The notes under the pieces: generated by a model | What the model was told of the DNA's origin: nothing | What the model saw: only the letters and a program-made list of their open reading frames with translations | Databases searched by the model: none | Shown here: piece after piece, positions 2,099 to 61,700 of the stretch | How positions within the stretch are numbered: the first letter of the stretch is position 1 | How the letters are laid out: each line of letters starts with the position of its first letter | Translations under genes and position numbers: made by a program | Assembly: GCA_941918925.1 (NCBI GenBank) | Contig: OW799233.1 | Span: 118,433,833 to 118,497,832, forward strand | From: Phyto melanocephala | Lineage: Eukaryota > Arthropoda > Insecta > Diptera > Rhinophoridae | DNA length: 64,000 nt | Direction: 5' to 3'

Positions 2099-3430
2099 TT
2101 CAATGATAGTGGGCGTTAAAGTAGGCGTGTCAATAAAGTTTCTGCTAATAAATACAACTTAGATATTTCAATATAGTCCTTTATTTTCCCAAAAACTTTG
2201 TCAATAGAGAAATTACATGAATTTAAGAAAACCCGTTATATGGGAGGTAGGCGTTATAGTGGGCGTGTCACTTAAACTTTTTGGCACAACAACTACATTG
2301 ATTAAAAGGATATATGTAGCAAATTTCCTCATCATACCTCTAATTTTGTCTGTTTTATGAGCTTTGAAACTTCATTAACGGTAGATAACGTGAAAAGTGG
2401 GCGTCATAGTAGGCGTGTCAAAGTTATTTTTGCGAATGAGTACATTTTAGATGTTTCAATATAGCCTTTTATTATTCCAAAATCTTTTTTAATAGAGAAA
2501 TTATATGAATTTTAGGTAAAACGTTATATGGGAGGTGGGCGTAAAAGTAGGCGTGGCACCTTAATTTTTTTGTACAATAATGACACTGTCTAGGGGGATA
2601 TACGAAGCAAATTTGATCATTATACATCAAATTTTGGCGGTTTTATGAGCTTTTAAATTTCATTAACGGTAGATAACGTGAAAAGTGGGCGTTATAGTAG
2701 GCGTGTCAAAACTATTTTTGCGAATGAGTACATTTTAGATGTTTCAATATAGCCTTTTATTATTCCAAAATCTTTTTTAATAGAGAAATTATATGAATTT
2801 TAGGTAAAACGTTATATGGGAGGTGGGCGTAAAAGTAGGCGTGGCACCTTAATTTTTTTGTACAATAATGACACTGTCTAGGGGGATATACGTAGCAAAT
2901 TTGATCATCATACATCAAATTTTGGCGGTTTTATGAGCTTTGAAATTTCATTAACGGTAGATAACGTGAAAAGTGGGCGTTATAGTAGGCGTGTCAAAGT
3001 TATTTTTGCGAATGAGTACATTTTAGATGTTTCAATATAGCCTTTTATTATTCCAAGATCTCTTTTAATAGAGAAATTATATGAATTTTAGTTAAAACGT
3101 TATATGGGAGGTGGGCGTAAAAGTGGGCGTGGCACCTTAATTTTTTTGGCACAATAATGACATTGCCTAGGGGGATATACATAGCAAATTTGATCATCAT
3201 ACATCAAATTTTGGCGGTTTTATGAGCTTTTAAATTTCATTAACGGTAGATAACGTGAAAAGTGGGCGTTATAGTAGGCGTGTCAAAGTTATTTTTGCGA
3301 ATGAGTACATTTTAGATGTTTCAATATAGCCCTTTATAATTCCAAAATCTTTGTTAATAGAGAAATTATATCAATTTTAGGTAAAACGTTATATGGGAGA
3401 TGGGCGTAAAAGTGGGCGTGGCACATTGGT
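2099..3430. repeat. 288-bp tandem repeat inside Helitron-like copy 1
   Basis: The motif GTGGGCGTTATAGTAGGCGT recurs at 2397, 2685, 2973 and 3262, spacings of 288, 288 and 289 bp. Each unit also holds a second variant, GGTGGGCGTAAAAGT(A/G)GGCG. The units from 2397 on are nearly identical and the first is more diverged, which implies recent local amplification. Shorter, more diverged versions are present in the copies at 14.9-15.4 and 20.2-20.9 kb. Confidence 0.9.
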
Positions 3431-6773: not shown

Positions 6774-8374
6774 ACATGGAGTCTTTGCAAAAAAACTATA
6801 TTTATTAGCGTTTCAATAAACAACAAAACATTAGATGTTAGAAACAACAACAGTATAGTTGCGAAGCAATCCAATAAAAATATTTTTTTAAATATGTTGC
6901 TTTCAACGGTTGAAGCTTGTTGAATAATTTTTTATTAGTTAAAAATTGGACATACATACATATATGATAACGAGCAATAAAACTTATAGCAAAATTAATA
7001 ATTATGTATCTGAACTTATGCTATGATTTTCTGGTCTTTAAAATGTAATTCGCTTTGCACTACTTACAATTTTTTTTGCTGGATAATAATGGGATGATGC
7101 TTTAACTTAACAGTATAATGATCATTTGAAACTATTTTAATAGCAATCATACAAGCCAACTGTAGGAGATTGTTCTTGGATTATAATAATCTCAAGCTTT
7201 TTTTTTATTTGTGTGCACCGCTAAAGATTCAATTTTTTAAATTTCAGATGAAAGTAAGCCTTGATTTAGTGGAAAAAGTGCTCCAAAATTGGGTTCATCG
7301 AATTTTTTCCTGCAGAGAAGTCGAGAAGTCATTTGAATGAGGTTTCATTTAAAACTTAATTGTATCGATGGTACATCACCTTAAACAAAAAAAACTTTTG
7401 AATTTTCTTAACAATAAGTGTGTTGTTTTAGAAATCATATGACTCTTATTGGAAAACCTTTTCCTTCTTTTAACTATACATTAACTAAAACCAAGAAATT
7501 ACAAACTTATCTAAGTGTGCTCACTTTAATCGCAAGTAATGATAAAGAGTAATTGTTATATTATCAGTTTTCCTTTAATTCTCAAAGTAGAAGCAAAGAA
7601 TTCTTTACCACACAAAACTTTAATTGAAAATAAAAAGGTTATACCACTTTTAAAACAATCTAATGCAAATTAGTTTAATTTGTTGTCTTTTGCTTAGGCA
7701 AAATAAAATCACAAATTTAATGTCTTACAGGAATTTGTAAAAGAGTTAAACTTTAATTTAAATTCTTCTTGAATATTTTGTAATTAAGTTAATTTGAGAA
7801 AATATTTATATTTTGATTAAGAACATTATTAAGTAAGTTCACATTTGAAAAGTATTTGCTCAAATAAGAGTTAAAACTATTAAGGTAAATAATTATTTAA
7901 TGTCATGTGTTTTTTTTTTACGTCTTTCAAATATTAACCGTCGATTACTACCACAATTTTTATTAATCAAGAAAAAATTTTATTTAAAAAGAATTTTTCA
8001 AGAGAAATTAATATATTTTGGGACAAATAATTCTTCGTTTAAACTTTCAATATAATACTGAATTAAATAGATGGTATTTACGCACAACACTTGCAGTTCT
8101 GATCAAAATAGTGCTGATCTACGCAGCGAGTATCGGATAAATAAATTTTTCTTAATATTCTGCCTTTATCACATTAAACTAAGAGTTTGAATATTATATT
8201 ATAATCAAATGTCACTTCAAATATTTGCCTAATATGAACATACTTTCAGGCTAGTTTAATTTTGTTTGAAATCGAAACTAAACAGTGCTTCCAAGTTGTC
8301 CTATGAAACTAAATTTAACATTTTTAATGAAATTTGCTTTAACCAAAATATTTTATTTGTTTTATAATTTTTTT
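6774..8374. other. AT-rich stretch, nothing recognised
   Basis: No open frame with family motifs, no repeat shared with the rest of the window and no RNA gene were seen. Confidence 0.5.
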
Positions 8375-13729: not shown

Positions 13730-14404
13730 CAAAGCAAATAACATCGATTAACTTAAGCAACCAAGAAATAACACTTGTTCTGGTATCTTTTTTTTTCAAT
13801 TTTTTTTCTTCCTTTTGAGCAACAATTTATCTGAAGTTTTCTCTGGTAGTTGTACCCACCCACTTGGATGTAAGATAACTCGTACAATTATAATTATCGC
13901 TTGTAAAAAATGTGACAACCTTTCAACTTTTTGCTGTTGGGGAAAAACAATTTTCTATTATAAGTTTTTTAAGTCTCTAAAAAATTTATCTAAATTGTTT
14001 TTATTTTTAAAGAGCAATTAAGTAACATATAAATTTTCTTTTTATTTTAAATTATTTCTTAAAAAATCATAAAAAGTCATAATTGATAAATATAACTTTT
14101 TAAATGAATTTTTCTTCTTAGAAATGTTTAACTATTAAATTAGGATTTTCTATAACAAAAAACTTTGAATATATTTTCTCTAAAAAAAATTTTAAGAAAA
14201 TAAAATAACATTAAATGACAGTAGGAAAAAGAATAAAAACAATAAAAAAAATTAAGTTACGATAAATATCAATCTCTCAAAATTATATAAAAACCAAATA
14301 ATATCATATAAAGACGTTATAAATTTTGTAGCTGGTCTCGAAAATGCAATCCACTTGCTAAGTTGCAAAAACTAAATTTTTCGTTATCACAAACAAAAAA
14401 ATAA

Positions 14405-18605: not shown

Positions 18606-18646
18606 TCAATATTTCGCTACCTATTTGTGTAGCATCATCAGGATAC
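18606..18646 (-). ncRNA. Hammerhead ribozyme half-motif (stem II and cores only)
   Basis: On the minus strand CTGATGA (18635-18641) is followed by a bulged T, a 5-bp stem GCTAC/GTAGC and GAAA (18612-18615), the order of a hammerhead core. The sequences expected to form stem I do not pair, so this is probably an inactive or very diverged relative of the hammerheads at 29.3 and 57.5 kb. A similar GCTACC-loop-GGTAGC-GAAA without the CTGATGA core lies near 56178-56206 on the minus strand. Confidence 0.45.
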
Positions 18647-19399: not shown

Positions 19400-21412
19400 C
19401 AAGTAAGAGCACTATATTCGGCTGCGCCGAATCTTTTATACCCACCACCAATTTTGTGTACATTTAAAGCACAATATTTATTATTTTGTTAATCGCTATG
19501 GAATAATCTCTTTATAATAAAATACATATCACTTTCTTTGTAGAGGGTGGTTAAATTTTAAGGGCCCATGTTGAAGGTGAACTACACCTAGTCTTTAAAT
19601 TTGTTTTCTGCATTTCATTTGACATTTCTCAATCACAAACTTTTTCAATTTGATCCGTGGAAAGATACGCAAATGATCAACGCTTTAACGTTATTCAGGT
19701 TTTTTTTTATAAAAATGGGCGTTTAAATCAAAATGCATTTTGTGCACTTCGTAATTGTTTTGATCAACATAATCGTTCAAATTCGTCCACAATCGGGAGA
19801 ATTGTAAAAAAGATTAAATTTTCTGAAAAACAGGTCTGTATAAAATGTTAGAAAATCTGTGAATGCCTTCCCAGTGCGTTGAATGGGAACCACTGCTGGT
19901 TTTTGCGATAGTGTGGCAAAAGAGCAGTCAACCTCGACTCATCATCATGCCCAACAATTGAGCATCAACATTGTCATTGAAAATTTGGACCATAAGATAG
20001 CGGAGTGGCTCCAAGCATGGGGGACCATTTGGCCGATATTTTGTTAAATACATAATTGAACCTTACAAATATTATCATTATAAAAAGAAATAATAATAAT
20101 ATCCTAAATAACTTGTGTTTTATTTAAATTCAACAATTAACCACCCTTTATAACTTCGATATGCTACTAAAATTCTTTTGTAAATGTAGTCTTTCAATGA
20201 TAGTGGGCGTTAAAGTAGGCGTGTCAATAAAGTTTCTGCTAATAAATACAAATTAAATATTTCAATATAGTCCTTTATTTTCCCAAAAACTTTGTCAATA
20301 GAGAAATTACATGAATTTAAGATAAACCATTATATAGGAGGTAGGCGTTAAAGTGGGCGTGTCACCTTAACTTTTTGGCACAACAATTACATTGATTAGA
20401 AGGATATACGTAGCAAATTTGATCATCATACCTCTAATTTTGGCGGTTTTATGAGCTTTTAAATTTCATTAAAGGTAGATAACTTGTAAAGTGGGCGATA
20501 GAGTAGGCGTGTCAAAGTTATTTTTGCGAATGAGTACAACTTAGGTGTTTCAATATAGCCCTTTATTATTCCAAAATCTTTATTAATAGAGAAATTATAT
20601 GAATTGTAGGTAAAACGTTATATGGGAGGAGGGCGTAAAAATGGCCGTGTCACCTTAATTTTCTGGCTCAGTAATGACACTGCCTAGGGGGATATACGTA
20701 GCAAATTTGATTATCATACCTCTAATTTTGGCGGTTTTATGAGCTTTTAAATTTCATTAACGGTAGATAACGTGAAAAGTGGGCATTATAGTAGGCGTGT
20801 CAAAGTTAGTTTTGCGAATGAGTACAACTTATATGAATTTTAGGTAAAACGTTATATGGAAGGTGGGCGTAAAAGTGGGCGTGGCACATTGATTTTCCGT
20901 CACAAAAAAGCATCTCTCCAAAAGGCGAATTGCGCAAAATTTCAGAGTCGTACATTCAATTTTGTTGCTTTTATGACGTTTTTTTTTTAAATATACCGAA
21001 AAATACACTGTGCGGTATAAATTTTCGTACATTTTGATCGATAACTCTTTTCCTAATTCATAAATTTAAGCGATTTTCAGGGAAAGATATTCTTTTGACT
21101 CGATAAATATATATTCAAAGTTTCATGACTCTACGTTTATGCGTCTGGACACAATTCCATTTTATTCGATGTGCGAATGACACCGTTTTTTCGACCTACT
21201 CTTGCTTTTCGAGTTATAACTCTGTTCCTAATATTCCGATTTAGCCCATTTCAAACCTTGTCTATCAGAAAGATTCTGGCAAAATTTGAGCCCCCTAGCT
21301 TTTTCGGTGCGACCTCTATCGTGCTTTCAACAGACGGACAGACGGACGGACATAGCTAGATCGTCATAAAATCAAACCCCGATTCAGAATTTTTTGGTGG
21401 CGGGTATAAAAA
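19400..21412 (-). mobile_element. Helitron-like dipteran repeat, long copy 3
   Basis: The hairpin terminus (CAAGTAAGAGCACTATATTC, ATTCGGC-TGC-GCCGAAT) and the far end (GACAGACGGACGGACATAGC, GGTGGCGGGTATAAAA) match copy 1. It carries the same deleted mariner (19543-20150) at the same internal position, followed by a shorter tandem region. Copy 1 and copy 3 therefore descend from one mariner-bearing progenitor. Confidence 0.7.
19543..20150 (+). pseudogene. Internally deleted mariner inside Helitron-like copy 3
   Basis: This is the sister of the element at 1433-2058. The termini GAGGGTGGTTAAATTTTAAG and the complement of TAAAGGGTGGTTAATTG are flanked by TA. The frame from about 19657 reads ERYANDQRFNVIQV, NGRLNQNAFCALRNCFDQHN and SSTIGRIVKK, and remnants of the C-terminal tail (HLADILLNT-like) occur near 20030. 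The catalytic core is deleted. Confidence 0.7.
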
Positions 21413-21817: not shown

Positions 21818-24800
21818 ACCAGGGAATGACAACGATTACAACTTCGGATATACATTGAGTATTATTAGCAAAACATGTATAAGTGCGTACGGTTACAGCT
21901 AAAAAAATTACTCTATCCGTACATACTCGTTTGATGTTCGGCATAAGTATATACAAGTAACCGAAATCTAAGTATTTTTCGCATAAATACTCTATATTGT
22001 ACACAGTACAACAAATTGGACTTAAGTACTTAAGTGTTATCGATTATCCGTAAAAAAAAGCGAGTAAAATGAGTAACCGTTTTTACAATTCAAGCGAGAG
22101 CATCAAGTAGAAATTTTGCATGCGTTTTGATTTTGTAAAAATGCACTTGCTTGGGTTATGAAAACAGCACAACCATAAACAAACATAAACATACATAAAC
22201 ATTATTGTTATACATTTATTTGTTGTTTTTTTATGATCGCTTGTGTGTATCAGAGTCTGACTTCGGTTATCCGAAAAAAAAAATAACTCGAATATTTACT
22301 TATCTTTTTCGGTTATAAATATAACCATGCATTTATCACAGAAAATAGCTACTCGTACATGCATGAATTGCTACGGTTACGAGTATATTTATTACTTACT
22401 TTCAAAAATACTCTCTATACATACGTATTATTCGGATATACATGTGCGAAAACAAATTACTTATAAGTATTGGCAAAATACTTACAAGTATTAGCAAAAT
22501 ACTTATAAGTATTGGCAAAATACTTATAAGTATTGCGACATACTTATAAGTACTTTTGAACAAAAAAACAAGTAAAAAACAAGTAAAAGTGCTTTATTCT
22601 GCTCTTTCATTTTTTATCAAACAAAAAGAAAATTGGTCAGGGCTGGAACTATTTGTATAGTAAATATATATAACATAATTTATATTGCTTATTAATTTAA
22701 ATAAGCAACGAGCTAACACATAATAATAAAATGTTTTCTTTAAATAAAAATAAATCTACATATATTTATTATTTATTTTTAGTATTAAGAAACGCAACTG
22801 TTATACCTGAAATTTGTATGGCTTATCAACTTAAAAAAAATTATTTTGATATAAAAGCAGAAAAAGATAAGTAAAAATTAAAGAAAATAAAAGTGAAAAT
22901 TTAGTTGAATTGATACTGGCAATAGATATGTATTTAACAATGTATTTTTTATTTTGATTTAATATTTATATAATTACGTATGTAAAGGTTGTTTTTTTAA
23001 GCCCGATAGAACTTGAAATTGTAAAAAATAACACAAAAAATTAAATTGTAATCAAAATTTTTTTTTTATTTGAAAGATCAATACGTGACATTAACATTTG
23101 AAAATGATTTCGGGCATATGGGCACCGCGGCTGTTCTTGACGAAGCGCATTCTGGACGTCCAATTTTGGGCCACTTTTTCGAGCACTGCTGGCCGTATGT
23201 CACGAATAACACGAACAATGCTGGCCTCCAAGGCGTCAATTGTTGCTGGTTTATCAGTATAAACCAGTGACTTCACGTAGCCCCACAGGAAATAATCGAG
23301 AGGTGTCAAATCGCACGACTTTGAAGGCCAATTGACAGGTCCATTTCTCGAAATCAACTTATCGCCAAATTTTGATTTCAATAAGTCGATGGTTGCGTTC
23401 GCCGTATGGCACGTAGCGCCATCCTGTTGAAACCACATCTCCTCCGGATCAATGTCATCCATATTTTCAAACAAAAAATCATTGATCATGGTGCGGTAAC
23501 GATCTCCATTGACCGTAACGCGAGCTCCGGCCTCATTTTTGAAGAAATAAGGTCCGATGATGCCACCAGCGTGAAAACCGCATCAAACGGTGCATTTTTC
23601 TGGATGTAATGGAGTCTGTAGGGTCTCTTGTGGATTGGTCTCGCTCCATATGCGGCAATTTTGCTTATTAACAAACCCGTTAAGCCAAAAATGCGCCTCA
23701 TCGCTGAACACAATTTTGCGATAAAACAACGGACGTCCAGAATGCGCTTCGTCAAGAACAGCCGCGGTGCCCATATGCCCGAAATCTTTTTCAAATGTTA
23801 ATGTCACGTATTGATCTTTCAAATAAAAAAAAAATTTTGATTACAATTTAATTTTTTGTGTTATTTTTTACAATTTCAAGTTCTATCGGGCTTAAAAAAA
23901 CACCCTTTACATACGTAATTATATAAATATTAAATCAAAATAAAAAATACATTGTTAAATACATATCTATTGCCAGTATCAATTCAACTAAATTTTCACT
24001 TTTATTTTCTTTAATTTTTACTTATCTTTTTCTGCTTTTATATCAAAATAATTTTTTTTAAGTTGATAAGCCATACAAATTTCAGGTATAACAGTTGCGT
24101 TTCTTAATACTAAAAATAAATAATAAATATAAGTAGATTTATTTTTATTTAAAGAAAACATTTTATTATTATGTGTTAGCTCGTTGCTTATTTAAATTAA
24201 TAAGCAATATAAATTATGTTATATATATTTACTATACAAATAGTTCCAGCCCTGACCAATTTTCTTTTTGTTTGATAAAAAATGAAAGAGCAGAATAAAG
24301 CACTTTTACTTGTTTTTTACTTGTTTTTTTGTTCAAAAGTACTTATAAGTATGTCGCAATACTTATAAGTATTTTGCCAATACTTATAAGTATTTTGCTA
24401 ATACTTGTAAGTATTTTGCCAATACTTATAAGTAATTTGTTTTCGCACATGTATATCCGAATAATACGTATGTATAGAGAGTATTTTTGAAAGTAAGTAA
24501 TAAATATACTCGTAACCGTAGCAATTCATGCATGTACGAGTAGCTATTTTCTGTGATAAATGCATGGTTATATTTATAACCGAAAAAGATAAGTAAATAT
24601 TCGAGTTATTTTTTTTTTCGGATAACCGAAGTCAGACTCTGATACACACAAGCGATCATAAAAAAACAACAAATAAATGTATAACAATAATGTTTATGTA
24701 TGTTTATGTTTGTTTATGGTTGTGCTGTTTTCATAACCCAAGCAAGTGCATTTTTACAAAATCAAAACGCATGCAAAATTTCTACTTGATGCTCTCGCTT

Positions 24801-27407: not shown

Positions 27408-28110
27408 ACATACGTAATTATATAAATAGTAAATCAAAATAAAAAATACATTGTTAAATACATATATATTGCCAGTATCAACTCAACTAAATTTTCACTA
27501 ATATTTTCTTTAATTCTTACTTATCTTTTTCTGCTTTTATATCAAAATAATTTTTTTTAAGTTGATAAGCCATACAAATTTCAGGTATAACAGTTGCGTT
27601 TCTTAATACTAAAAATAAATAATAAATATAAGTAGATTTATTTTTATTTAAAGAAAACATTTTATTATTATGTGTTAGCTCGTTGCTTATTTAAATTAAT
27701 AAGCAATATAAATTATGTTATATATATTTACTATACAAATAGTTCCAGCCCTGACCAATTTTCTTTTTGTTTGATAAAAAATGAAAGAGCAGAATAAAGC
27801 ACTTTTACTTGTTTTTTGTTCAAAAGTACTTATAAGTATGTCGCAATACTTATAAGTATTTTGCCAATACTTATAAGTATTTTGCCAATACTTATAAGTA
27901 ATTTGTTTTCGCACATGTATATCCGAATAATACGTATGTATAGAGAGTATTTTTGAAAATAAGTAATAAATATACTCGTAACCGTAGCAATTCATGCATG
28001 TACGAGTAGCTATTTTCTGTGATAAATGCATGGTTATACTTATAACCGAAAAAGATAAGTAAATATTCGAGTTATTTTTTTTTTCGGATAACCGAAGTCA
28101 GACTCTGATA
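27408..28110. repeat. Partial third copy of the palindrome arm
   Basis: This segment is collinear with right-arm positions of about 23909-24644, from ACATACGTAATT to GACTCTGATA, including the TACTTATAAGTATTTTGCC repeats (three units here against more in the arms). It stops abruptly at both ends and lacks the mariner part. At its left edge the flanking TA and the sequence AATGTAAATACATACG replace the mariner terminal repeat, so this could be an unoccupied relative of the site where the mariner inserted. Confidence 0.85.
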
Positions 28111-28267
28111 TAAACCTTATCCTTCCTATCATTTCCTTAACCTTGCGGAGCAAATGGTGGGGAAAGTAATTATTATAAAAGGTCAAATAAACTAATAATT
28201 AGTTATTGAAATATAAAAATATAATATTAGTGTGACTTAGTTTAGAGTTTTAATAAATATTTTAATT

Positions 28268-28330
28268 ATCAATTAATTTACTAAATTATTCAGGATATGC
28301 TCCCATAAACCCAACAACCAAATAAATATA
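28268..28330. repeat. Rearranged fragment of the 57.6-kb Penelope-like repeat
   Basis: TTTACTAAATTATTCAGGAT then ATGCTCCCATAA is the inverted form of the segment at about 57581-57612. It is fused directly to AACCCAACAACCAAATAAATAT, which appears in direct orientation at 57547-57569. The fragment therefore carries a breakpoint inside the repeat, without the hammerhead. Confidence 0.6.
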
Positions 28331-28354
28331 TTTTTTTAATTATCTATAAAAAAA

Positions 28355-28860: not shown

Positions 28861-29313
28861 ATAAATCATAAATTTTCCGCAACAAAAAATTTCGAATCAT
28901 ATTCACTTAGCAATTTTCAATAATCATTGATTCTTCAAACTTAAACACCCGTTATCAATTCGTTCGTGAAATAGATTTTTCTAAATCTTGTTCTTATTAA
29001 CACTTCTTCAATCTATGCAGTACCAAACAGTATGGCTGACAAAGTCTGCAAAACATATATTCGTACAAATGAATAAGAATAAAAAATAAAACAACTACAA
29101 CAAAAATTAGCATTATGTACCGTGCACTTTTTGCAGGATTCAATCTGAATAACATTTTTCATGACTTCTAGTTCATAAGTGCAAGACATGAAGAATGCCG
29201 TCTTCAAATCAAAAATAGCTTGCCTTAATTAATGTGGTTCAAAATACATATAATATAAGTTCTATGTGATAATGACAGAATATCTAGGAAAAGTTAGTTA
29301 TCCGATACTAGCT

Positions 29314-29361
29314 GAGTGGAATGCATTTTCGAAACCAGCTACGGTTTCATCATCAGCAGTC
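29314..29361 (-). ncRNA. Type I hammerhead ribozyme, family A copy 1
   Basis: Minus strand, 5' to 3': stem I strand GACTG, core CTGATGA (29350-29356), bulged T, stem II GAAACC-GTAGCT-GGTTTC, core GAAA, stem III AATG/CATT with no loop, cleavage base C (29319), stem I return strand CACTC. Stem I has one C-C mismatch, which copy 2 does not have. An outer stem CTGAT/ATCGG extends it after an asymmetric internal loop. Predicted cleavage falls between 29319 and 29318. Confidence 0.75.
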
Positions 29362-29818
29362 TTTTGATCAGAACTACAAATGTTGTGTGTAAATATCAAC
29401 TATTTAACTCAGTATTTTATTGAAAATTGAAATATAGAATTATTTGTTCTAATTGATTTATGTCTTTCATATAACATTGAGTTAGTACGAAATTTACCAA
29501 CATCTGTTTTTCCTGTATTCTTTTTGCACGTCATTACCACAAGTAATTAATGGTTGCCTTTAGCTACAGATCCACAGATGTCGCTAAAGAAATTTTTGTA
29601 ATTATGCAGTTGCATTATAAGTCACATGTGTTCTAAACAAGATGGTATTAGTTGAACAATGTTTTTTTATTTTTACACCAAGCCCAGTGTTTGTTTGTTG
29701 TATTTTAAAGTATTACATTTGAACTCTTTTTAATTTGTATTATATTTTTATATTAGGCTATAAGTTCTATGTGATAATGACAGAATATCTAGGAAAAGTT
29801 AGTTATCCAATACTAGCT

Positions 29819-29866
29819 GAGTGGAATGCATTTTCGAAACCAGCTACGGTTTCATCATCAGCACTC
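29819..29866 (-). ncRNA. Type I hammerhead ribozyme, family A copy 2 (intact)
   Basis: Minus strand: GAGTG pairs perfectly with CACTC (stem I). CTGATGA (29855-29861) and GAAA are both canonical. Stem II GAAACC/GGTTTC is 6 bp with loop GTAGCT and stem III is AATG/CATT without a loop. The base before the scissile bond is C (29824). An outer stem I (CTGAT/ATCGG, then GTT/AAC across a 2-nt bulge) follows an internal loop CAAAA/AGCTAGT. All conserved core positions are present, so self-cleavage is plausible. The zero-loop stem III suggests that it may need a dimer, as proposed for other minimal Penelope hammerheads. Confidence 0.8.
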
Positions 29867-30146
29867 TTTTGATCAGAACTACAAATGTTGTGTGTAAATA
29901 TCAACTATTTAACTCAGTATTTTATTGAAAATTGAAATATAGAATTATTTGTTCTAATTGATTTATGTCTTTCATATAACATTGAGTTACTACGAAATTT
30001 ACCAACATCTGTTTTTCCTGTATTCTTTTTGCACGTCATTACCACAAGTAATTAATGGTTGCCTTTAGCTACAGATCCACAGATATCGCTAAAGCAATTT
30101 TTGCAATTATGCAGTTGCATTATAAGTCACATGTGTTCTAAACAAG

Positions 30147-36465: not shown

Positions 36466-36513
36466 GAGTGGAATGCATTTTTGAAACCAGCAACGATTTC
36501 ATCATCAGCACCC
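36466..36513 (-). ncRNA. Decayed hammerhead ribozyme, family A copy 3
   Basis: Minus strand: stem I GGGTG/CACTC (one wobble), CTGATGA intact, stem II GAAATC/GGTTTC with a wobble, but GAAA is mutated to AAAA, which removes the essential first G. The outer stem ACCGAT/GTCGGT differs in sequence from copies 1 and 2 yet still pairs, which supports the fold. Predicted inactive. It is followed by GGTTGTAAATATCATCTATT, also seen near the 29-kb copies, so it is a fragment of the same repeat. Confidence 0.7.
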
Positions 36514-37199: not shown

Positions 37200-37247
37200 G
37201 AGTGGAATGAGTTTTCGAAATCAGTTACGATTTCATCTTCAGTACTC
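37200..37247 (-). ncRNA. Decayed hammerhead ribozyme, family A copy 4
   Basis: Minus strand: core CTGAAGA (the changed position is the variable U7), stem II GAAATC-GTAACT-GATTTC, GAAA intact, stem I GAGTA/CACTC with the innermost pair lost. In stem II both strands differ from copies 1 and 2 so that a C-G pair becomes U-A, a compensatory change. Stem III is weakened (AACT/CATT). Confidence 0.65.
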
Positions 37248-41442: not shown

Positions 41443-42215
41443 TTATGGGCGACAAAAAATGTACCTTCTTGCATCTTTATCGTACTTTATACGTTTATGA
41501 GGCTTATGACGCATATACATACATACTAATGTATGTACTAAATTATAGTGAAAAAAGTCCGTAATTTTTTTTTTAGTGAACGAATTAAATCTGTCTTTGT
41601 CCAATGAATTTTCAATTGTGAATAGAGCTGAAAAGAAATCATCACTTGTATTCGTTCTGAGAACGTAGGAGCGTAATGTAGTTAGACTTGTCATTGCTTC
41701 ACTTAATGAAACTGTAGTTTGTGGCTGCTCATTTTCGTCTGCTTCATCTTCTTCACCCAAAAAATTCAAATTCAATAGTTCAGCGTCGGTTAGGGCACCG
41801 TAGACACTGATATTATCATCTACTTAAACACAGTCTTCAAAATTCACCTCTTCAGGGTAAGGCAGAAGATGCCATCTTGGATGCGGGTGCGTAACTTCCG
41901 ATGAATATGGTAATTGAGCTGAAGACTTTTGCGTAAAACCTCACTTCCTGAAGCAGTTATAAATGGTAGCAGAATGTTTTGGTCTCTGCACTGACGAATC
42001 CATTCTATCAAGCATTTCTCAAGATAAGGAAATTGAGCCGTACGTGACCGTTTTCTACCTCCACTTAAGGTTAATTCGGTGATGTGATTTCTGTTTTTCA
42101 AAATCATGTTTAATGTTGATGGCAAAATCCCGAATTTTTTAGCAACATCTTTAACTGTCCATTATCTGCAGCCTCAATCACAAGTTGTTTTTATTTAATG
42201 GAAAGGCGCTTGTTC
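41443..42215 (-). pseudogene. pogo/Tigger transposase remnant without DDE core
   Basis: Minus strand: around 42215-42130 a frameshifted ENKRLSIK...KQLVIEAADNGQ segment matches the start of the CENP-B-type helix-turn-helix. From 42125 the frame gives PSTLNMILKNRNHITELTLS then GGRKRSRTAQFPYLEKCLIE and WIRQCRDQNI, the second DNA-binding part. The DDE domain is missing. After a frameshift and one stop, LTDAELLNLNFLGEEDEADE and SLSEAMTSLTTLRSYVL, DFFSALFTIENSLDKDRFNS follow, matching the acidic C-terminal tail of this family. Not capable of transposition. Confidence 0.75.
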
Positions 42216-46038: not shown

Positions 46039-46086
46039 GAGTGGAAAGTATTTTCGAAACCAGCTACGATTTCATTATCAGCACTC
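46039..46086 (-). ncRNA. Decayed hammerhead ribozyme, family A copy 5
   Basis: Minus strand: stem I GAGTG/CACTC perfect, stem II GAAATC/GGTTTC with one wobble, GAAA present. The core is CTGATAA, so the essential G8 is lost, and stem III is reduced to two pairs. Predicted inactive. The flanking CGGCTAATATCGG still resembles the outer stem strand. Confidence 0.65.
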
Positions 46087-47417
46087 ATTATACTCATATT
46101 TATATGTAAGATAATTAAATGAAAATAGAAAACGGGAAGCATAGCATTTTATCTTTAAACTGTTAATTCTTACCAAATGACATATTCTTCATTTATATAT
46201 TTAGATATGAGTTTACCAATAAAATGGTGCTGATGATTAAATCATAGAGATTTGGCCCATATTGGATAAAATTTTCAGTATTCCTAAACCCTTAACATAC
46301 TATAAAGGTTAATTTAAAATTTTTAGAAAGTATAAAAATGTTTTTTAATGAACTGAAGTTAGAATAGATTAACAATGATATTTATTTATATTTTAAAAAA
46401 TATTTGGTGAGAATGGCAATTGCCGAACGCTCAAGTGACTTAATTGTATAAACTTAGATGTACAATGTTTGTACATACATTTCATTATGTGTTATTTATA
46501 GATTTGTAAAACTGTTCTTTTTATGGTCAATAAGACACTTATATTTGTTATAAAATACATGTCCTCGTAAACACATTTGGCCGTAAGTAGGCGAAACCAA
46601 AAAAAGCTATTAAAAACAACACAAAAGAGTATATGAAAAAACGAATAGTGAGAAAAAGGAAAAGAATATTTTTTGTTAGATAATTTTTATTGTTCTGCAG
46701 GTAATAGAAATTCAATATCCTAATCGTTATTAGTGTGTTTGGTATACGAAAGTCATTTACAAACAGAATAATAATTGTTATTTAAAACCCAACTGTATAT
46801 TTGGTATAAAATATATATCAAATATATAGTTTAAGTAAAGTTAACATTATAAAATGCTTTAAAAAATTTATTTATTTTGCTTTCAATATAGAATAGTGTG
46901 TTTATAAAGCATTTAAATTTTAAATAAAATTAAAAAAACATAAATTTTTAATAGATTTGACTTTGTTAAATTACTTTAAAAATTTTAATATAAAATGGCA
47001 TAAACAAAATCGCCAATATAAAATGTGTGAAATTGACATTAAAATTATATATTGCTTTCGATGTTGGAATTTATTTTTTAGTAATAAATTATTTATCTCT
47101 AAGAGATAAATTAAAATCAGCCAACAGTATTAATGATATTATTTATGTGTCATATAGTTTACAATTTTACATGTTTACCATAAATAATAAAGGTGAAGAA
47201 ATAGGTGTATTAAAGGAAAGCCAATAAATTTGTCAGTCTGCTAGTTCAATTCCTGCAGTAAGGGTCGTAATACTGCTTAAAAAATAAAGCTAAAATAATT
47301 ACAAATAGAATGCGAAGAATAATGAATAAATGATATATAACACTTTTATTTAAACAATACTTTTTCTATTGTTAACGACTCTTGTTAGACTTAGTAATAG
47401 CAAAAACTGATATTTAA
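46087..47417. other. AT-rich stretch, nothing recognised
   Basis: No gene or defined repeat was seen. A CTGATGA at 46230 (+) lacks a following GAAA. Confidence 0.5.
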
Positions 47418-56639: not shown

Positions 56640-56983
56640 GTTGTCAACGATATCTCTCTACAAAGATGTGTCACTTAATGTGCTTCCTATTTATGGCTTA
56701 TATAAGATGCAACTGTTACTTTATGTTTTTAAATCTATGAATAACATTGGTCATCACACAATCCTATTTTTTTAGAAACCAAACAACGTTTAATACAAGA
56801 AACAACACAAACTTAAGAATAGCCAGATGTCGATTAGAAACAACTAAACAGCGAATTGAACACATTGGTAGTTCTGAGTATAATAATCTGCCTCAAAGTA
56901 TTAAAAATATCGGAAGAATTTCTGTATTCAAGCAAGCTTTAAAAAAACATTTATTTGAAAATTTAGAAATGCTACTGCAATAA
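56640..56983 (+). pseudogene. C-terminal end of a LINE (non-LTR) reverse transcriptase
   Basis: A first frame gives LNVLPIYGLYKMQLLLYVFK then SMNN. After a frameshift, the frame at 56747-56983 gives RNQTTFNTRNNTNLRIARCR, LETTKQRIEHIGSSEYNNLP and SVFKQALKKHLFEN. This YNTRN...LR...R..T..Q....G...YN.LP....F...LK..L pattern is the conserved C-terminus of CR1/Jockey-like LINE polymerases. All upstream domains are missing (5' truncation), and ATT-rich tails follow at 57093-57182. Confidence 0.7.
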
Positions 56984-57092
56984 TATCAAGACATTTATTC
57001 AATTTGTTTATAATTTTTTGTATTAATTACATTCAAAATATACATATGTATGTACTATATATATTTCATATATTTATTGTTGTTCACACTTA

Positions 57093-57144
57093 ATTAATTA
57101 TTATTATTATTATTAAAAAAAAATTATTATTATTATTAAAAAAA

Positions 57145-57182
<38 letters not shown>
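57093..57182. repeat. ATT microsatellite
   Basis: ATT triplets are interrupted twice by A runs, ending in a pure run of about fourteen units. It lies between the LINE tail and the Penelope-like repeat. Confidence 0.9.
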
Positions 57183-57183
<1 letters not shown>

Positions 57184-57208
57184 TTTATTTGGTTGTTGGG
57201 TTTAAGCT

Positions 57209-57255
57209 GGTTTATATGCATTTCACTGGTGCTTATGCCAGATCATCAGTAAACC
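57209..57255 (-). ncRNA. Type I hammerhead ribozyme, family B, inverted copy
   Basis: Minus strand: stem I GGTTTA/TAAACC (6 bp), CTGATGA (57243-57249), stem II CTGG-CATAAGCA-CCAG flanked by a U-U mismatch, GAAA, stem III ATG/CAT with no loop, and A before the scissile bond (57215). All core bases are present. The sequence is the same as the two plus-strand copies. Confidence 0.8.
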
Positions 57256-57494
57256 TTTACCCAAATTCTTGAAAAAGTTTAAAATTTTTATAAGTTATAT
57301 TTATATAAGTTATATTTTTATAAGTTATATATATATAGAAAAATAAAATAAATTAAAATTGAAAAATTGTTGGTTGGGTTTTTGAAAAAGTTTTTTATGG
57401 TTTTTTTGTTTTATTTTTGAATTCTCATTTTGTTAATGAGAATTTAAAAATATAACTTATAAAAATTTTAAACTTTTTCAAGAATTTGGGTAAA

Positions 57495-57541
57495 GGTTTA
57501 CTGATGATCTGGCATAAGCACCAGTGAAATGCATATAAACC
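57495..57541 (+). ncRNA. Type I hammerhead ribozyme, family B copy 2 (intact)
   Basis: Stem I GGTTTA (57495-57500) pairs with TAAACC (57536-57541). CTGATGA is 57501-57507, GAAA 57526-57529 and stem III ATG/CAT 57529-57534, with cleavage after A 57535. Beyond an internal loop TAAA/AGCTTAAA, an outer stem TTGGG/CCCAA pairs (57487-57491 with 57550-57554). The AGCT in this internal loop is shared with family A, consistent with a conserved loop contact. Confidence 0.85.
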
Positions 57542-57853
57542 AGCTTAAACCCAACAACCAAATAAATATAATTGAAAAATTATGGGAGCATATCCTAAAT
57601 AATTTAGTAAATTAACTAAAATAAAGATTTTATTTTTCGGTTGCCCTTATAAGCATTTAGTGTTAACCAACGGTTAGCCAAATGCTAAAGGGATTAGAAA
57701 AATAAAATAAATTAAAATTGAAAAATTGTTGGTTGGGTTTTTGAAAAAGTTTTTTATGGTTTTTTTGTTTTATTTTTGAATTCTCATTTTGTTAATGAGA
57801 ATTTAAAAATATAACTTATAAAAATTTTAAACTTTTTCAAGAATTTGGGTAAA

Positions 57854-57900
57854 GGTTTACTGATGATCTGGCATAAGCACCAGTGAAATGCATATAAACC
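57854..57900 (+). ncRNA. Type I hammerhead ribozyme, family B copy 3 (intact)
   Basis: This is an exact 359-bp offset copy of the motif at 57495-57541, with the same stems, cores and outer TTGGG/CCCAA stem. Cleavage is predicted after 57894. Together with copy 2 it would release a unit of 359 nt from a read-through transcript. Confidence 0.85.
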
Positions 57901-57969
57901 AGCTTAAACCCAACAACCAAATAAATATAATTGAAAAATTATGGGAGCATATCCTAAATAATTTAGTAA

Positions 57970-57971
<2 letters not shown>

Positions 57972-58032
<61 letters not shown>

Positions 58033-58045
58033 ATTATTATTATAC
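57972..58045. repeat. ATT microsatellite
   Basis: About twenty-three ATT units immediately follow the right-hand Penelope-like repeat. The open frames through it encode only poly-Tyr or poly-Asn and are not genes. Confidence 0.9.
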
Positions 58046-58089
58046 ATATGTATATACATATATACATATATAGATATTTTATTTTTATT

Positions 58090-58195
58090 TTTTTTCCCAA
58101 TTCGCCTCAATTATGTCCAAGAGACGCTGAGGCCGCACACTTTGTAAAATATTTATTGTAATTAATGAATAATAATAATAATAAAAAAAAAGAAA
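58090..58195 (+). mobile_element. Possible LINE 3' tail
   Basis: CCAATTCGCCTCAATTATGT, AAGAGACGCTGAGGCCGCAC, then TTTGTAAAATATTTATTG and a run of (AAT)n plus A-rich sequence have the look of a non-LTR element 3' UTR with a simple-repeat tail. No coding part is attached. Confidence 0.4.
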
Positions 58196-58359
58196 AAAAA
58201 AAATAGTTTTCTTTAGAACTTCTTTAATATCATATAACAACTTTAAAAATATTTTAAATTATAGTTTCCAAATATAATTTAAAATATATTTTCTTTGTAT
58301 TTGGGATGCCTTCCCCTATTTTCTCATGGTTTATTTTATATAAAATTTATTCCTTGTAA

Positions 58360-58379
58360 TCTATATATATAAAAGTGAA

Positions 58380-58434
<55 letters not shown>

Positions 58435-59165
58435 GCTATAGACTCTGAAACTGTAAAACCGATCGGGCTCAAACTTTGGTAAGTTGTTGTACACATACCG
58501 GGGAGTGTTTATGGATGAAAAAAAGTGGGCGGGGCCACGCCCATAAAAAATTAGTTATCAGTTTTAGCTACTTGCACTTGACCGATTTTTCTGAAACTTT
58601 GTACACATATCGAGCTGTCATGACTAAATAATTTCGTGATAAGAAAAGTGGGCGGGGCCACGCCCCTAAAAAAGTTTTAATTTTGAGGCACTTGCACTGG
58701 ACCGATTTTTCTGAAACTGTGCACACATATTAAGCTGTCGTGACTTTATAATTTTAAGACTAAAAAAGTGGGCGGGGCCACGCCCATAAAAAAAGGCTAT
58801 AATTTTGAGGTATTTGCACCAGACTGATTTTTCTGAAACTTTGCACACATATTGAGCTGTCCTGACTAAATAATTTCGTGATTAGAAAAGTGGGCAGTGC
58901 CACGCCCATAAAAAAAAGGTATCATTTTGAAGTACTTGCACTTGACCGATTATTCTGAAACTTTGCACACACATTGAGCTGTTATGACTTTACAATTTCG
59001 TGATAAAAAAAGTGGGCAGGGCCACGCCCATAAAAACAATTTTAATTTTGAGGTACTTGCACTGGTCCAATTCTTCTGAAACTTTGCACACATATTGAGC
59101 TGTTATGACTTTACAATTTCGTGACTAGAAAAGTGGGCAATGCCACGCCCATAAAAAAAAAGCTA
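58360..59165 (+). mobile_element. Element with GT microsatellite and six 121-bp tandem units
   Basis: It begins TCTATATATATAAAAGTG, then a (GT)n tract (58383-58431). Six units follow, each with the palindromic GTGGGC-GGGG/AGTG-CCACGCCC box, at 58525, 58648, 58768, 58890, 59012 and 59133 (spacing 120-123 bp). Each unit also contains CACTTGAC/CTGGACCGATTTTTC and CACATATTGAGCTGT. The TC start after A is compatible with a Helitron 5' end, but no 3' end was found. Short frames inside arise from the repeats. Confidence 0.75.
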
Positions 59166-60900
59166 CATTTTTTTAATTTAAAAAAAAATTTAGGCCTTAT
59201 ATCATAAAATTACTAAAAATAAAGATATATAAATAACAACTTTTTTAACATCTTATTTAAATAGGAAATATTTAGCAACAGTTTTTTCAGTCTGCAACCA
59301 GCTCTAAATTCAAATCTTATTCTTCTCAAAATAAAACTCTTAATGTGTTAATGATCCTTTTTATCTTTTCTGTTTCATGTAAATCTGAATAGTAGTTTAA
59401 ACGTTTAACATTTGTTTTAATTTTATTTATAATCAGCACTAAGTATTGCGGTAAATTACACAAAGTACTGTTATGTGTTTATTTGAACAAAAAGACTTGT
59501 ATTTTATATATGAGTAAAAAAAACAATAAATTGTTGTTGTATTATAAATGCTAAAATAGTCTAGCTAAAATTTTTCTCAGAGGTAGACTTAGATCTTTAG
59601 GTATACTGAGCTTTCCTGTGGGATAGATTTGGCAATTCTTTAGCAAAAGAGTTTGTTTGTCAGTGCCAATTAAGTTATGATTTTATTTATTAAATAAAAT
59701 TAATTAAAATTTTTTTAAATAAGTCGGATTGGTAAGATTCCTAAAAAGTATTACAATTAATTTTGGCAAGAGAAAAAAAAAATTTTTTTAACCGATTTAT
59801 TGTTTTTTTTTTTTTTTTTTTGTTCCTAAAATTTCTATAAGGGATCATAACACTAGGAGCCACAAACTTATGATTCCGTTTAGTAAAAAATAAGCAATTT
59901 TTTTTTAAATTTTGATCAATATTTTTCCTTCTTTTTTGTTTTTAGTACAGAGATGCATTTAATGGGCTTAATGATTAAACAGGTAAATAGACAGACAGGT
60001 GACTATAACTAAATCGCCTCAAAACGTCTCTTTATTGTATCTTAAATAACTGTTTTCTCCAGAAAGTAGTGAGAAACGTTGTAATAATATTTTATCATAA
60101 ACAACTAATATGCATTGATATTGCTGTTATATATTTATATATTTTTTTGTCACAATCCCTTTAGTTATTTATCTAATTTGGAAATTTCCACAACTTTGTA
60201 TTAGAAAAATTTAATTACTAATATCTGTTTTATAGAACAACAAAACCTTTAAGGCAAGCCACAAATTGCTTTTATAGTATTTTGTCAAAAAAATGTATAT
60301 ATTGTATGGACTTTGGTTTCTTTGATTTTGTGGTTGGATTAAGAATTAAATAATTTGTGCACAAACAAATTTTCATATAATTTTATTATTAAAACAATTT
60401 CCTATAGGAAGTATACTCATAGGAAGTAAACTTTTAGGGTTAGAATTAATATTTTGAAAATCAAGCTAAGTTTTATTTAAGTTTGTATTTACTTTTAAAT
60501 AGAAATAAACAGTAAATTGTTCATACTTTTAGATTTTTATAAATTTAATTTTACCATATTTAAATATCTAATTTACCTTTATTTTACAAATGGATTTTTT
60601 TTTTGCCATTAAATTTTTCCACGCTTAATTCTGTACTTTGTTAAATTTGTTTTTCATTTAAACCATAAGCTCTTTTTTAAATTTTTTATAATGAGCCTAA
60701 AAGTATTTTACACTTAATTGTTAGAACGATGACTTTGAAAGTATGCAACACTTTTCATTATTTTGTATTTTAATTATTCTCCCTTTTTTTACTTTTTTCA
60801 ATATTTTTTTAACTTTTTCCCTTTAAACCTCTTATTTTTATAACAGAACTTAAGGATACAATTATATCTGTAAAGGTATTCCTTTTGTTTTATAGACACT
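59166..60900. other. AT-rich stretch, nothing recognised
   Basis: A long T run occurs near 59805-59821. No gene or defined repeat was seen. Confidence 0.5.
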
Positions 60901-61700
60901 GTGAAAACTTGTAAACAACACTTTATTTTTTATTTTGTGTAAATTTTTTCTTAACTTATTTATTTTTACTTTTAAACTTTATTCTTTTCTTATAACTTTC
61001 ACTTTTACTTTTTTACAAAATTTCAATACCAAAACACTCTCACACTCATCTGCCACACACATTTGCTTCCTTTTATTCATGACAATTAAACTCGAAGTTT
61101 TACGTATACTTCACGTGTTGTATTTATTATTTGTGTGTGTAAAAACATTTTTAAAGAGAAGTTATTTAAAATCGTTTTTTGTAATGCGAGAAATGTGGCC
61201 GTTAGTCAGCTTTGAAAGCTGGCGAATGTCTGTCTAAGTTCAAAAATTACAATGTTGGGGTATTATCGAGGCGCCACTTGTTCTCGTTATTTCGTTGCTA
61301 AAAGCCTGTCGTTTTTTTTTTTTTTTAAACGGCATTGTGTGCCGAAGTTAAACGACAGATATCTTCTATACTTTTGTATTCTCTCTTCTTTCTCTTTTAG
61401 TTTGTTTGCTGTATGTTTGTGTAATGCAGTAATTTGTTTAGCTAAAAGAGTAACTCAGCAACGGTAAATAAAAACAATTGTTTCTTCAAAGAGTTTTAGG
61501 CACTTTACAGCACCACTGCTTAGTTTTTATTTCTTTTAGTTAGTTTAGTTGTTGTTATCATAATTTAAAGTTTTCGTCGTAAGTGTTTTTACTTTAATGT
61601 CCTGTTTTTGTGTCTGCTGTTGAATGTTTTCCTGAATCTACAGTTAGTTGTTTTTGTTTTATATTTAGTTTTTTTTTTGCGCTTTACGATATATAACGCT
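60901..61700. other. Less AT-rich segment, possible regulatory or 5' exon sequence
   Basis: About 61020-61460 is locally richer in G and C and of higher complexity (for example ACTCTCACACTCATCTGCCA, TCGAGGCGCCACTTGTTCTC). It is not shared with any repeat in the window. Open frames at 60935-61237 (+) and 61252-61467 (+) show no recognisable domain. It could be a promoter or untranslated exon of a host gene, but the sequence does not prove it. Confidence 0.25.

Follow-up and report, generated by a model that had tools for sequence, protein, structure and literature searches.

A non-coding repeat with hammerhead-like motifs and Penelope-like ends in the fly Phyto melanocephala

Two groups of hammerhead-bearing retroelements offer the closest described comparisons for the locus reported here. 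Animal non-LTR retrozymes, whose named hosts include insects, are short (170-400 nt), low-GC, non-coding tandem units that carry one type I hammerhead and give strongly self-paired RNA; most invertebrate retrozyme hammerheads have a stable stem III, and axolotl types are known with a weak palindromic stem III or a U.U at stem II (PMC7229834). Penelope-like elements carry hammerheads in their pLTRs (PMC11167929, PMC7761336), minimal in form (PMC3846280, PMC11167929) and reportedly without helix III or a loop contact (PMC7761336). A Penelope insertion comprises two direct pLTRs, an inverted 5' pLTR that is 37 bp shorter and an optional 31-bp tail; it makes target duplications of 8-10 bp, prefers simple AT-rich targets and can hold captured non-coding sequence between its pLTRs (PMC3846280). 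The purified Anolis enzyme cleaves at ATT and primes on both strands, and its two adjacent internal start sites, 111-118 nt into the ORF and 85-92 nt past the ribozyme cut, define a tail of 30-40 bp (PMC11167929). In the same work the Anolis hammerhead needed protein to cut, insertion continued when the ribozyme was mutated and the cut position coincided with neither the start nor the end of any read, so that a hammerhead need not drive mobility. Hammerheads have also been published in insect (PMC7229834) and mosquito (PMC3088659) repeats. Plant LTR retrozymes resemble the element described here in being non-coding with a ribozyme in each terminal repeat (PMC4918200, PMC7229834), and differ from it in their type III hammerhead, LTR features and 4-bp duplications, as against a type I hammerhead and an 11-bp candidate duplication here. 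In the available portion of a survey of D. virilis elements (PMC12910113) the word ribozyme is absent.

We analysed a 64,000-nucleotide stretch of the Phyto melanocephala genome (contig OW799233.1), referred to as the window, whose numbering is used throughout. Positions 57184-57973 hold three copies of a hammerhead-like motif within inverted and direct repeats, lack a sizeable frame and have ends in common with a second insertion, where a candidate target-site duplication is found. We interpret this segment, with a probability of about 0.68, as a single insertion of a non-autonomous retroelement that carries hammerheads, encodes no protein, has ends of Penelope type and was moved in trans.

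Repeat architecture and the hammerhead-like motif

The element is laid out as an inverted copy, a direct copy, 80 nt and a second direct copy. The inverted copy is the shorter one (57184-57305, minus strand, its end placed base by base) and has its 3' end at CCAAATAAA, a site termed S1; the inverted repeat 57178-57305/57445-57572 stands at 98%, or 99.2% over 125 nt by blastn. Across the junction of inverted and direct copies (57284-57337), Tandem Repeats Finder reported a 15-nt tandem repeat of 3.6 copies, which continues into TATATATATA. Direct copy 1 (57336-57614, plus strand), 279 nt long and pseudo-LTR-like, is identical at 279/279 positions to direct copy 2 (57695-57973, plus strand, 279 nt), whose last four nucleotides, ATTA, could be part of an (ATT)n target. 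The 80-nt internal segment between them (57615-57694, plus strand) follows from 279-nt repeats at a 359-nt spacing, and the direct part, at 638 nt, runs through the unit 1.78 times. This arrangement agrees with the published Penelope layout (PMC3846280, in the part available), as the sequence-only reading had proposed in describing tandem plus inverted Penelope-like repeats.

The 47-mer GGTTTA CTGATGA T CTGG CATAAGCA CCAG T GAAATGCATA TAAACC occurs exactly three times in the window, as two direct copies 359 nt apart (57495-57541 and 57854-57900, both plus strand) and one inverted copy (57209-57255, minus strand), and is flanked by an outer stem TTGGG/CCCAA. A descriptor scan identified in all three copies the type I hammerhead core, with CUGANGA and GAA strands connected via stem II and stem I open; A15.1-U16.1 is followed by H17 = A (not G) and by a 6-pair stem I. 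H17 is A57535 in the first direct copy, after which cleavage is predicted, and the predicted cut after A57894 in the second is derived from 57535 and the 359-nt spacing. Because the direct repeats are 279/279 identical and the inverted arm 98-99.2%, the three copies represent one motif that was copied. The earlier observation of a motif with stems I, II and III in three copies is therefore confirmed at all three coordinates by the exact 47-mer, and the outer stem, the 359-nt spacing and the predicted cut points 57535/57894 agreed on re-reading.

The simple pattern CTGATGA-N4-30-GAAA had seven matches in the window against 0.96 expected, and none of 100 shuffles reached seven. The full hammerhead descriptor, built on the hammerhead consensus once the motif was known, had four matches, which were the three 47-mer copies and a different sequence at 29861 (minus strand); it had none in 40 first-order Markov resamples or in 300 dinucleotide shuffles. 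With its gathering cut-offs Rfam 15 reported no hammerhead anywhere in the window, nor did it at E values up to 10 over 56900-58200 and 57470-57570, and permissive-E runs on three stretches returned only weak matches far under the cut-off, none of them a hammerhead. An Rfam match is a test against a library and not the definition of a type I hammerhead. The sequence-only reading had named an Rfam covariance-model search as its check and a lack of hits as grounds for dropping the hammerhead claim; formally, a lack of hits is what this search gave. An exact scan of viral and prokaryote collections with a 23-mer of the motif had no matches, as expected for an animal repeat, and no paper describing this particular element was noticed in the literature searched.

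The element is also non-coding. There was no stop-to-stop frame of at least 75 aa from 56981 to 60904, and the longest ATG-started frame of the 359-nt unit read as a circle was 28 aa, which bears out the earlier view of a unit without any protein. All 55 of the 55 frames of at least 75 aa in the window were scanned for Penelope proteins, and no reverse transcriptase or GIY-YIG family was found. The element was accordingly not classed as an autonomous Penelope element, as it has no frame of at least 75 aa of its own and none of the window's 55 such frames matched these families. A scan for bacterial-type promoters and terminators, of a kind unsuited to this genome, found nothing above shuffles.

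Predicted folding and release of a 359-nt RNA

The stretch 57486-57554 reads as outer stem TTGGG/CCCAA, stem I GGTTTA/TAAACC, core CUGAUGA, stem II CUGG/CCAG and GAA, with loop II CAUAAGCA in RNA letters and A15.1...U16.1 lying within a palindrome, AUGCAU. By sequence, the foot of stem II is a U.U mismatch (57508/57525) and not a canonical pair; a canonical pair there is usual, not universal, and HHR_Amex2 has U.U (PMC7229834). Stem III, ATG/CAT, is the palindrome itself with a zero loop, so that within one molecule only an A-U pair with the loop UGCA is possible. The U.U in stem II, the zero-loop stem III and the lack of an Rfam match make the earlier term 'intact' too strong. Loop II (57513-57520, plus strand, CATAAGCA) contains UAAGC, complementary to GCUUA in the 3' strand of the internal loop within stem I (AGCUUAAA; 57542-57549, AGCTTAAA). 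These five pairs, reached by 0.35% of shuffled 3' strands, predict a tertiary contact between loop II and stem I; among the hammerheads studied in PMC3088659, about 40% had a predicted pseudoknot linking stems I and II.

In energy models that leave tertiary contacts out of account, the single motif had a catalytic-like fold at -4.9 kcal/mol with the A-U pair and UGCA loop and at -10.6 without stem III, with a minimum free energy of -13.8 kcal/mol, and its folding was ordinary (z -0.53; 53/200 shuffles as good). A double hammerhead at -24.0 to -26.5 kcal/mol was not the predicted optimum, which in cofolding was -33.3, and stem III between two copies had a probability of 0.07-0.08 in a tandem transcript. 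The models thus favour neither the catalytic monomer nor the double hammerhead. We read the motif as a hammerhead by its anatomy, with likely activity; given the palindromic stem III, the ribozymes are probably weak singly and better as pairs. Axolotl ribozymes give a precedent (PMC7229834): HHR_Amex2, which shares the U.U, reached 22% cleavage within an hour in monomeric form, and HHR_Amex1, with a one-pair stem III and a palindromic tetraloop, reached 6%; dimers of both cleaved better, those of HHR_Amex2 much better. The repeat-associated hammerheads of Aedes aegypti (PMC3088659) likewise lie in dispersed animal repeats and have a palindromic stem III that could pair in a dimer, but their joint stem III has ten pairs against six here, and the tested Aedes candidate did not cleave.

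If both direct ribozymes cleave, the expected product is a 359-nt RNA (57536-57894, plus strand). Folded as a circle it reached -91.6 kcal/mol, compared with -55.0 +/- 4.6 for 100 shuffles, none of which was as low, with 69% of bases paired and stems I and II formed. With its length of 359 nt, its GC of 24.5%, its lack of coding content and its strong self-pairing, the unit matches animal retrozymes as described in PMC7229834: it is a tandem non-coding unit within 170-400 nt and below 45% GC, with one type I hammerhead. The element differs in that its direct part stops short of two full laps and is accompanied by an inverted copy, where those retrozymes form simple tandem multimers.

Excision of this RNA from a read-through transcript, as the sequence-only reading envisaged, depended in our predictions on where the transcript starts. 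When the transcript was taken to start at 57336, stem I (0.73-0.80) and stem II (0.81-0.83) formed in each ribozyme. In a transcript of 57184-57973 direct copy 2 was bound up by the inverted copy (0.985 for the sampled pair 57230-57879), leaving stem I of the second ribozyme at 0.013, while in ribozyme 1 stem I stayed near 0.4 and stem II near 0.6. With ribozyme 2 predicted to be locked in a long duplex by the inverted copy, a transcript would have to begin within that copy for excision to be plausible, and for transcripts spanning it the proposal is not supported. A transcript across the inverted copy would form a long hairpin and could serve as a source of small RNAs.

A second hammerhead-like family and other repeats of the window

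A second hammerhead-like family is present at 29254-30146 (minus strand) as 388-nt direct repeats (98.5%) lying 505 nt apart. Its motif at 29819-29866 (minus strand) has stem I GAGTG/CACTC, stem II GAAACC/GGTTTC after an extra U, stem III AATGCATT and H17 = C. Further 48-nt copies of the motif, all on the minus strand, lie at 29314-29361, 36466-36513, 46039-46086 and 37200-37247, the last three diverged, and partial relatives were seen at 8023-8210 and 14328-14380. Loop II and the strand just 3' of stem I form five pairs by eye with the loop GUAGCU, or four in the scan's choice of stem II. Standard pairs filled 94.4% of cells, a level reached by 59/500 shuffles, against 17-46% with the partner slid; covariation was weak, with one pair varying as C-G/U.G/U-A and 279/500 shuffles as high. 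A covariance model built from the five motifs found its own five and a weak match at 46228 and did not find the main element's motif, so by model the two families give each other no support. The weak match (46228-46259, plus strand, E 0.51) is inverted, lies about 140 nt from 46039-46086 and could be another inverted insertion.

A coding origin of this family was also weighed. A peptide like SADDEIVAGFENAFHSASIG is readable in four copies in one frame. In these four (copy B was left out) the differences by codon position were 26/16/24, and six pairwise comparisons gave 14 synonymous and 41 non-synonymous codon differences, a pattern in which no coding constraint is seen. Stop-free runs were 33, 50, 44 and 80 codons; for the longest, Pfam gave nothing and PDB two matches only, at E 0.8-0.9. 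By sequence, a coding origin is unlikely.

In four of the five copies of the second family, either the core (as judged by eye) or stem I is damaged. Such decay raises the question of whether the structure at 57184-57973 is as described and its ribozymes are inactive relics, from which nothing is excised today. The U.U at stem II, the zero-loop stem III and the missing Rfam match would also fit that state. We nevertheless consider it unlikely: the 279/279 identity of the direct copies makes the insertion recent unless they were homogenised, and HHR_Amex2 and HHR_Amex1, with their U.U and one-pair stem III, do cleave, better as dimers (PMC7229834).

Other features of the window were recorded. 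A lone CTGATGA...GAAA at 18612-18641 (minus strand) has a perfect 5-pair stem II and a start, CTGATGAT, in common with both families; with only about three stem I pairs by eye it was left uncounted as a hammerhead, and 54598 (plus strand) was set aside with no stem II by eye. Satellite-like tandem arrays at 2108-3424, 20202-20831 and 58519-59159, with 288-nt and 122-nt units containing GTGGGCG / GTGGGCAGGGCCACGCCC, had no match to the hammerhead descriptor. Broken pieces of a mariner/Tc-like transposase lie at 23094-23840; among the best 120 of 6,935 matches, ENA proteins reached 94% identity and the top named relatives were from Trichonephila clavipes (spider), with one from Vollenhovia emeryi, an arthropod-like set; two more protein searches returned 0 and 1 hits. 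Two frames at 41446-42161 resemble a broken pogo/Tc5-type transposase, and 41847-42161 had weak HTH_Tnp_Tc5 and CENP-B_N matches under the cut-off. The same 21-nt tandem repeat occurs in both orientations at 22453-22552, 24340-24439 and 27827-27905, within or beside copies of one longer repeat, for which the frames 22261-22491, 24401-24631 and 27699-28097 read alike.

Insertion ends and proposed mode of mobilisation

The ends of the element fall at two internal positions of the unit. S1, the end of the inverted copy, is unit position 231 (up to 237 if the next ATAAT is counted), and S2, the right end of direct copy 2, is unit position 279 (57614, or 57973 in copy 2). They lie 31-37 and 75-82 nt downstream of the predicted ribozyme cut, and the 42-48 nt between S1 (57566, up to 57572) and S2 (57614) form a 'tail' (57567-57614, plus strand), compared with Penelope tails of 31 bp or 30-40 bp (PMC3846280, PMC11167929). 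An inverted 5' copy and an optional tail are features of the pLTR layout in the available portions of these papers, as are inverted plus direct repeats at an AT-rich or ATT target. As in Penelope-like elements, the hammerhead here is upstream of the presumptive reverse-transcription start sites, S2 at 75-82 nt comparing with 85-92 nt for the Anolis sites (PMC11167929). Both ends of the main insertion abut (ATT)n, reported by Tandem Repeats Finder on the left (57097-57183; row 57097-57189) and on the right (57970-58043), which masks any target duplication.

Blastn found a second locus of the family in the 64-kb window, at 28271-28333. This 63-bp insertion is without a ribozyme and joins an inverted piece (unit 245-280; 87.7% over 57 nt, running past position 280 at low identity) to a direct piece (unit 211-235; 100% over 25 nt). 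It lies between two copies of the 11-bp word TTTTAATTATC (28260-28270 and 28334-28344), a candidate target-site duplication; the word occurs in the window only at 28260 and 28334. An 11-bp repeat flanked exactly 63 nt at 3/63,880 positions and random flank pairs shared an 11-mer in 0.3% of draws, while non-simple 11-bp direct repeats at spacings of 40-399 nt were common (328 in the window). At each of the two insertions one end falls close to S1 and the other, oppositely oriented, close to S2; the positions agree within 7 nt, although this agreement may be a coincidence.

This dispersed copy between 11-bp repeats, together with the absence of descriptor matches from the 300 shuffles, makes it very improbable that the element arose by local duplication and inversion of AT-rich DNA, or by assembly artefact, around a chance hammerhead-like hairpin. 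The AT-rich, repetitive surroundings would suit such an origin, and identical copies are also what mis-assembly would give.

A different mover also has to be weighed. LINE insertions, too, can carry a 5' inversion and a target duplication of 11 bp. The frame 56741-56980, adjoining the left (ATT)n, looks by eye like a LINE 3' end, of which that tract is perhaps the 3' tail, and had no Pfam match. The element could on this account be a retrozyme moved by a LINE and not by a Penelope-type enzyme, its inversion the result of twin priming and the adjoining LINE-like end a relative of the helper; LINEs or PLEs have been named as possible helpers (PMC7229834). We regard this as improbable. Two internal 3' ends 42-48 nt apart, present once each and in opposite orientation at both insertions, fit a Penelope tail, and 56741-57100 matches nothing else in the window and so has no 3' end in common with the element.

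Closer to our own interpretation is descent from a Penelope-like element, autonomous and belonging to this genome, by internal deletion or reduction to a solo pLTR; the hammerhead would then be the pLTR ribozyme of that element, with no circular RNA stage and no separate retrozyme lineage. The layout is the same as that of two pLTRs with an inverted pLTR, hammerheads are located in Penelope pLTRs (PMC11167929, PMC7761336), pLTRs with captured non-coding DNA between them have been described (PMC3846280), and the motif here, without a closed stem III, recalls Penelope hammerheads that reportedly go without helix III or a loop contact (PMC7761336). Against it, a loop II/stem I contact is predicted here, unit size and self-pairing fit retrozymes, and the window has no Penelope frame, whether reverse transcriptase or endonuclease, with which to compare. 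Such a derivative is a serious candidate that we hold somewhat short of even odds.

We return to a non-coding element mobilised in trans, which we infer by analogy with Penelope. Transcripts of the tandem unit would carry type I hammerhead-like ribozymes able to cut out the 359-nt RNA, and a reverse transcriptase/GIY-YIG endonuclease, presumably of Penelope type, would act in trans on a template that may be a 359-nt circle or a linear multimer. Synthesis of cDNA would start at the two internal sites, S1 and S2; if both strands of a broken ATT-rich target served as primers, one end would come out inverted and the unit would be copied more than once over. Overall, the interpretation offered in the sequence-only reading is partly supported. 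Tentatively, and with somewhat less than even confidence, the family may link two groups of hammerhead retroelements, combining a retrozyme-size unit and a contact-bearing hammerhead with the start-site signature of Penelope (S1/S2, priming of both strands, an ATT target).

The element adds to the non-autonomous retroelements known to bear hammerheads, and its ends suggest mobilisation of the Penelope type. It also illustrates that one 64-kb window can contain two hammerhead-like repeat families unreported by Rfam models at gathering. As the mover of animal retrozymes, Penelope-like elements have been called a strong candidate (PMC7229834). A predicted cut and two putative cDNA start sites that can be read from a genome make the Penelope idea testable, as under it every copy should end in one of two clusters, about 31-37 and 75-82 nt past the cut. 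If the proposed link is true, this family would provide anatomical evidence for Penelope enzymes moving animal retrozymes.
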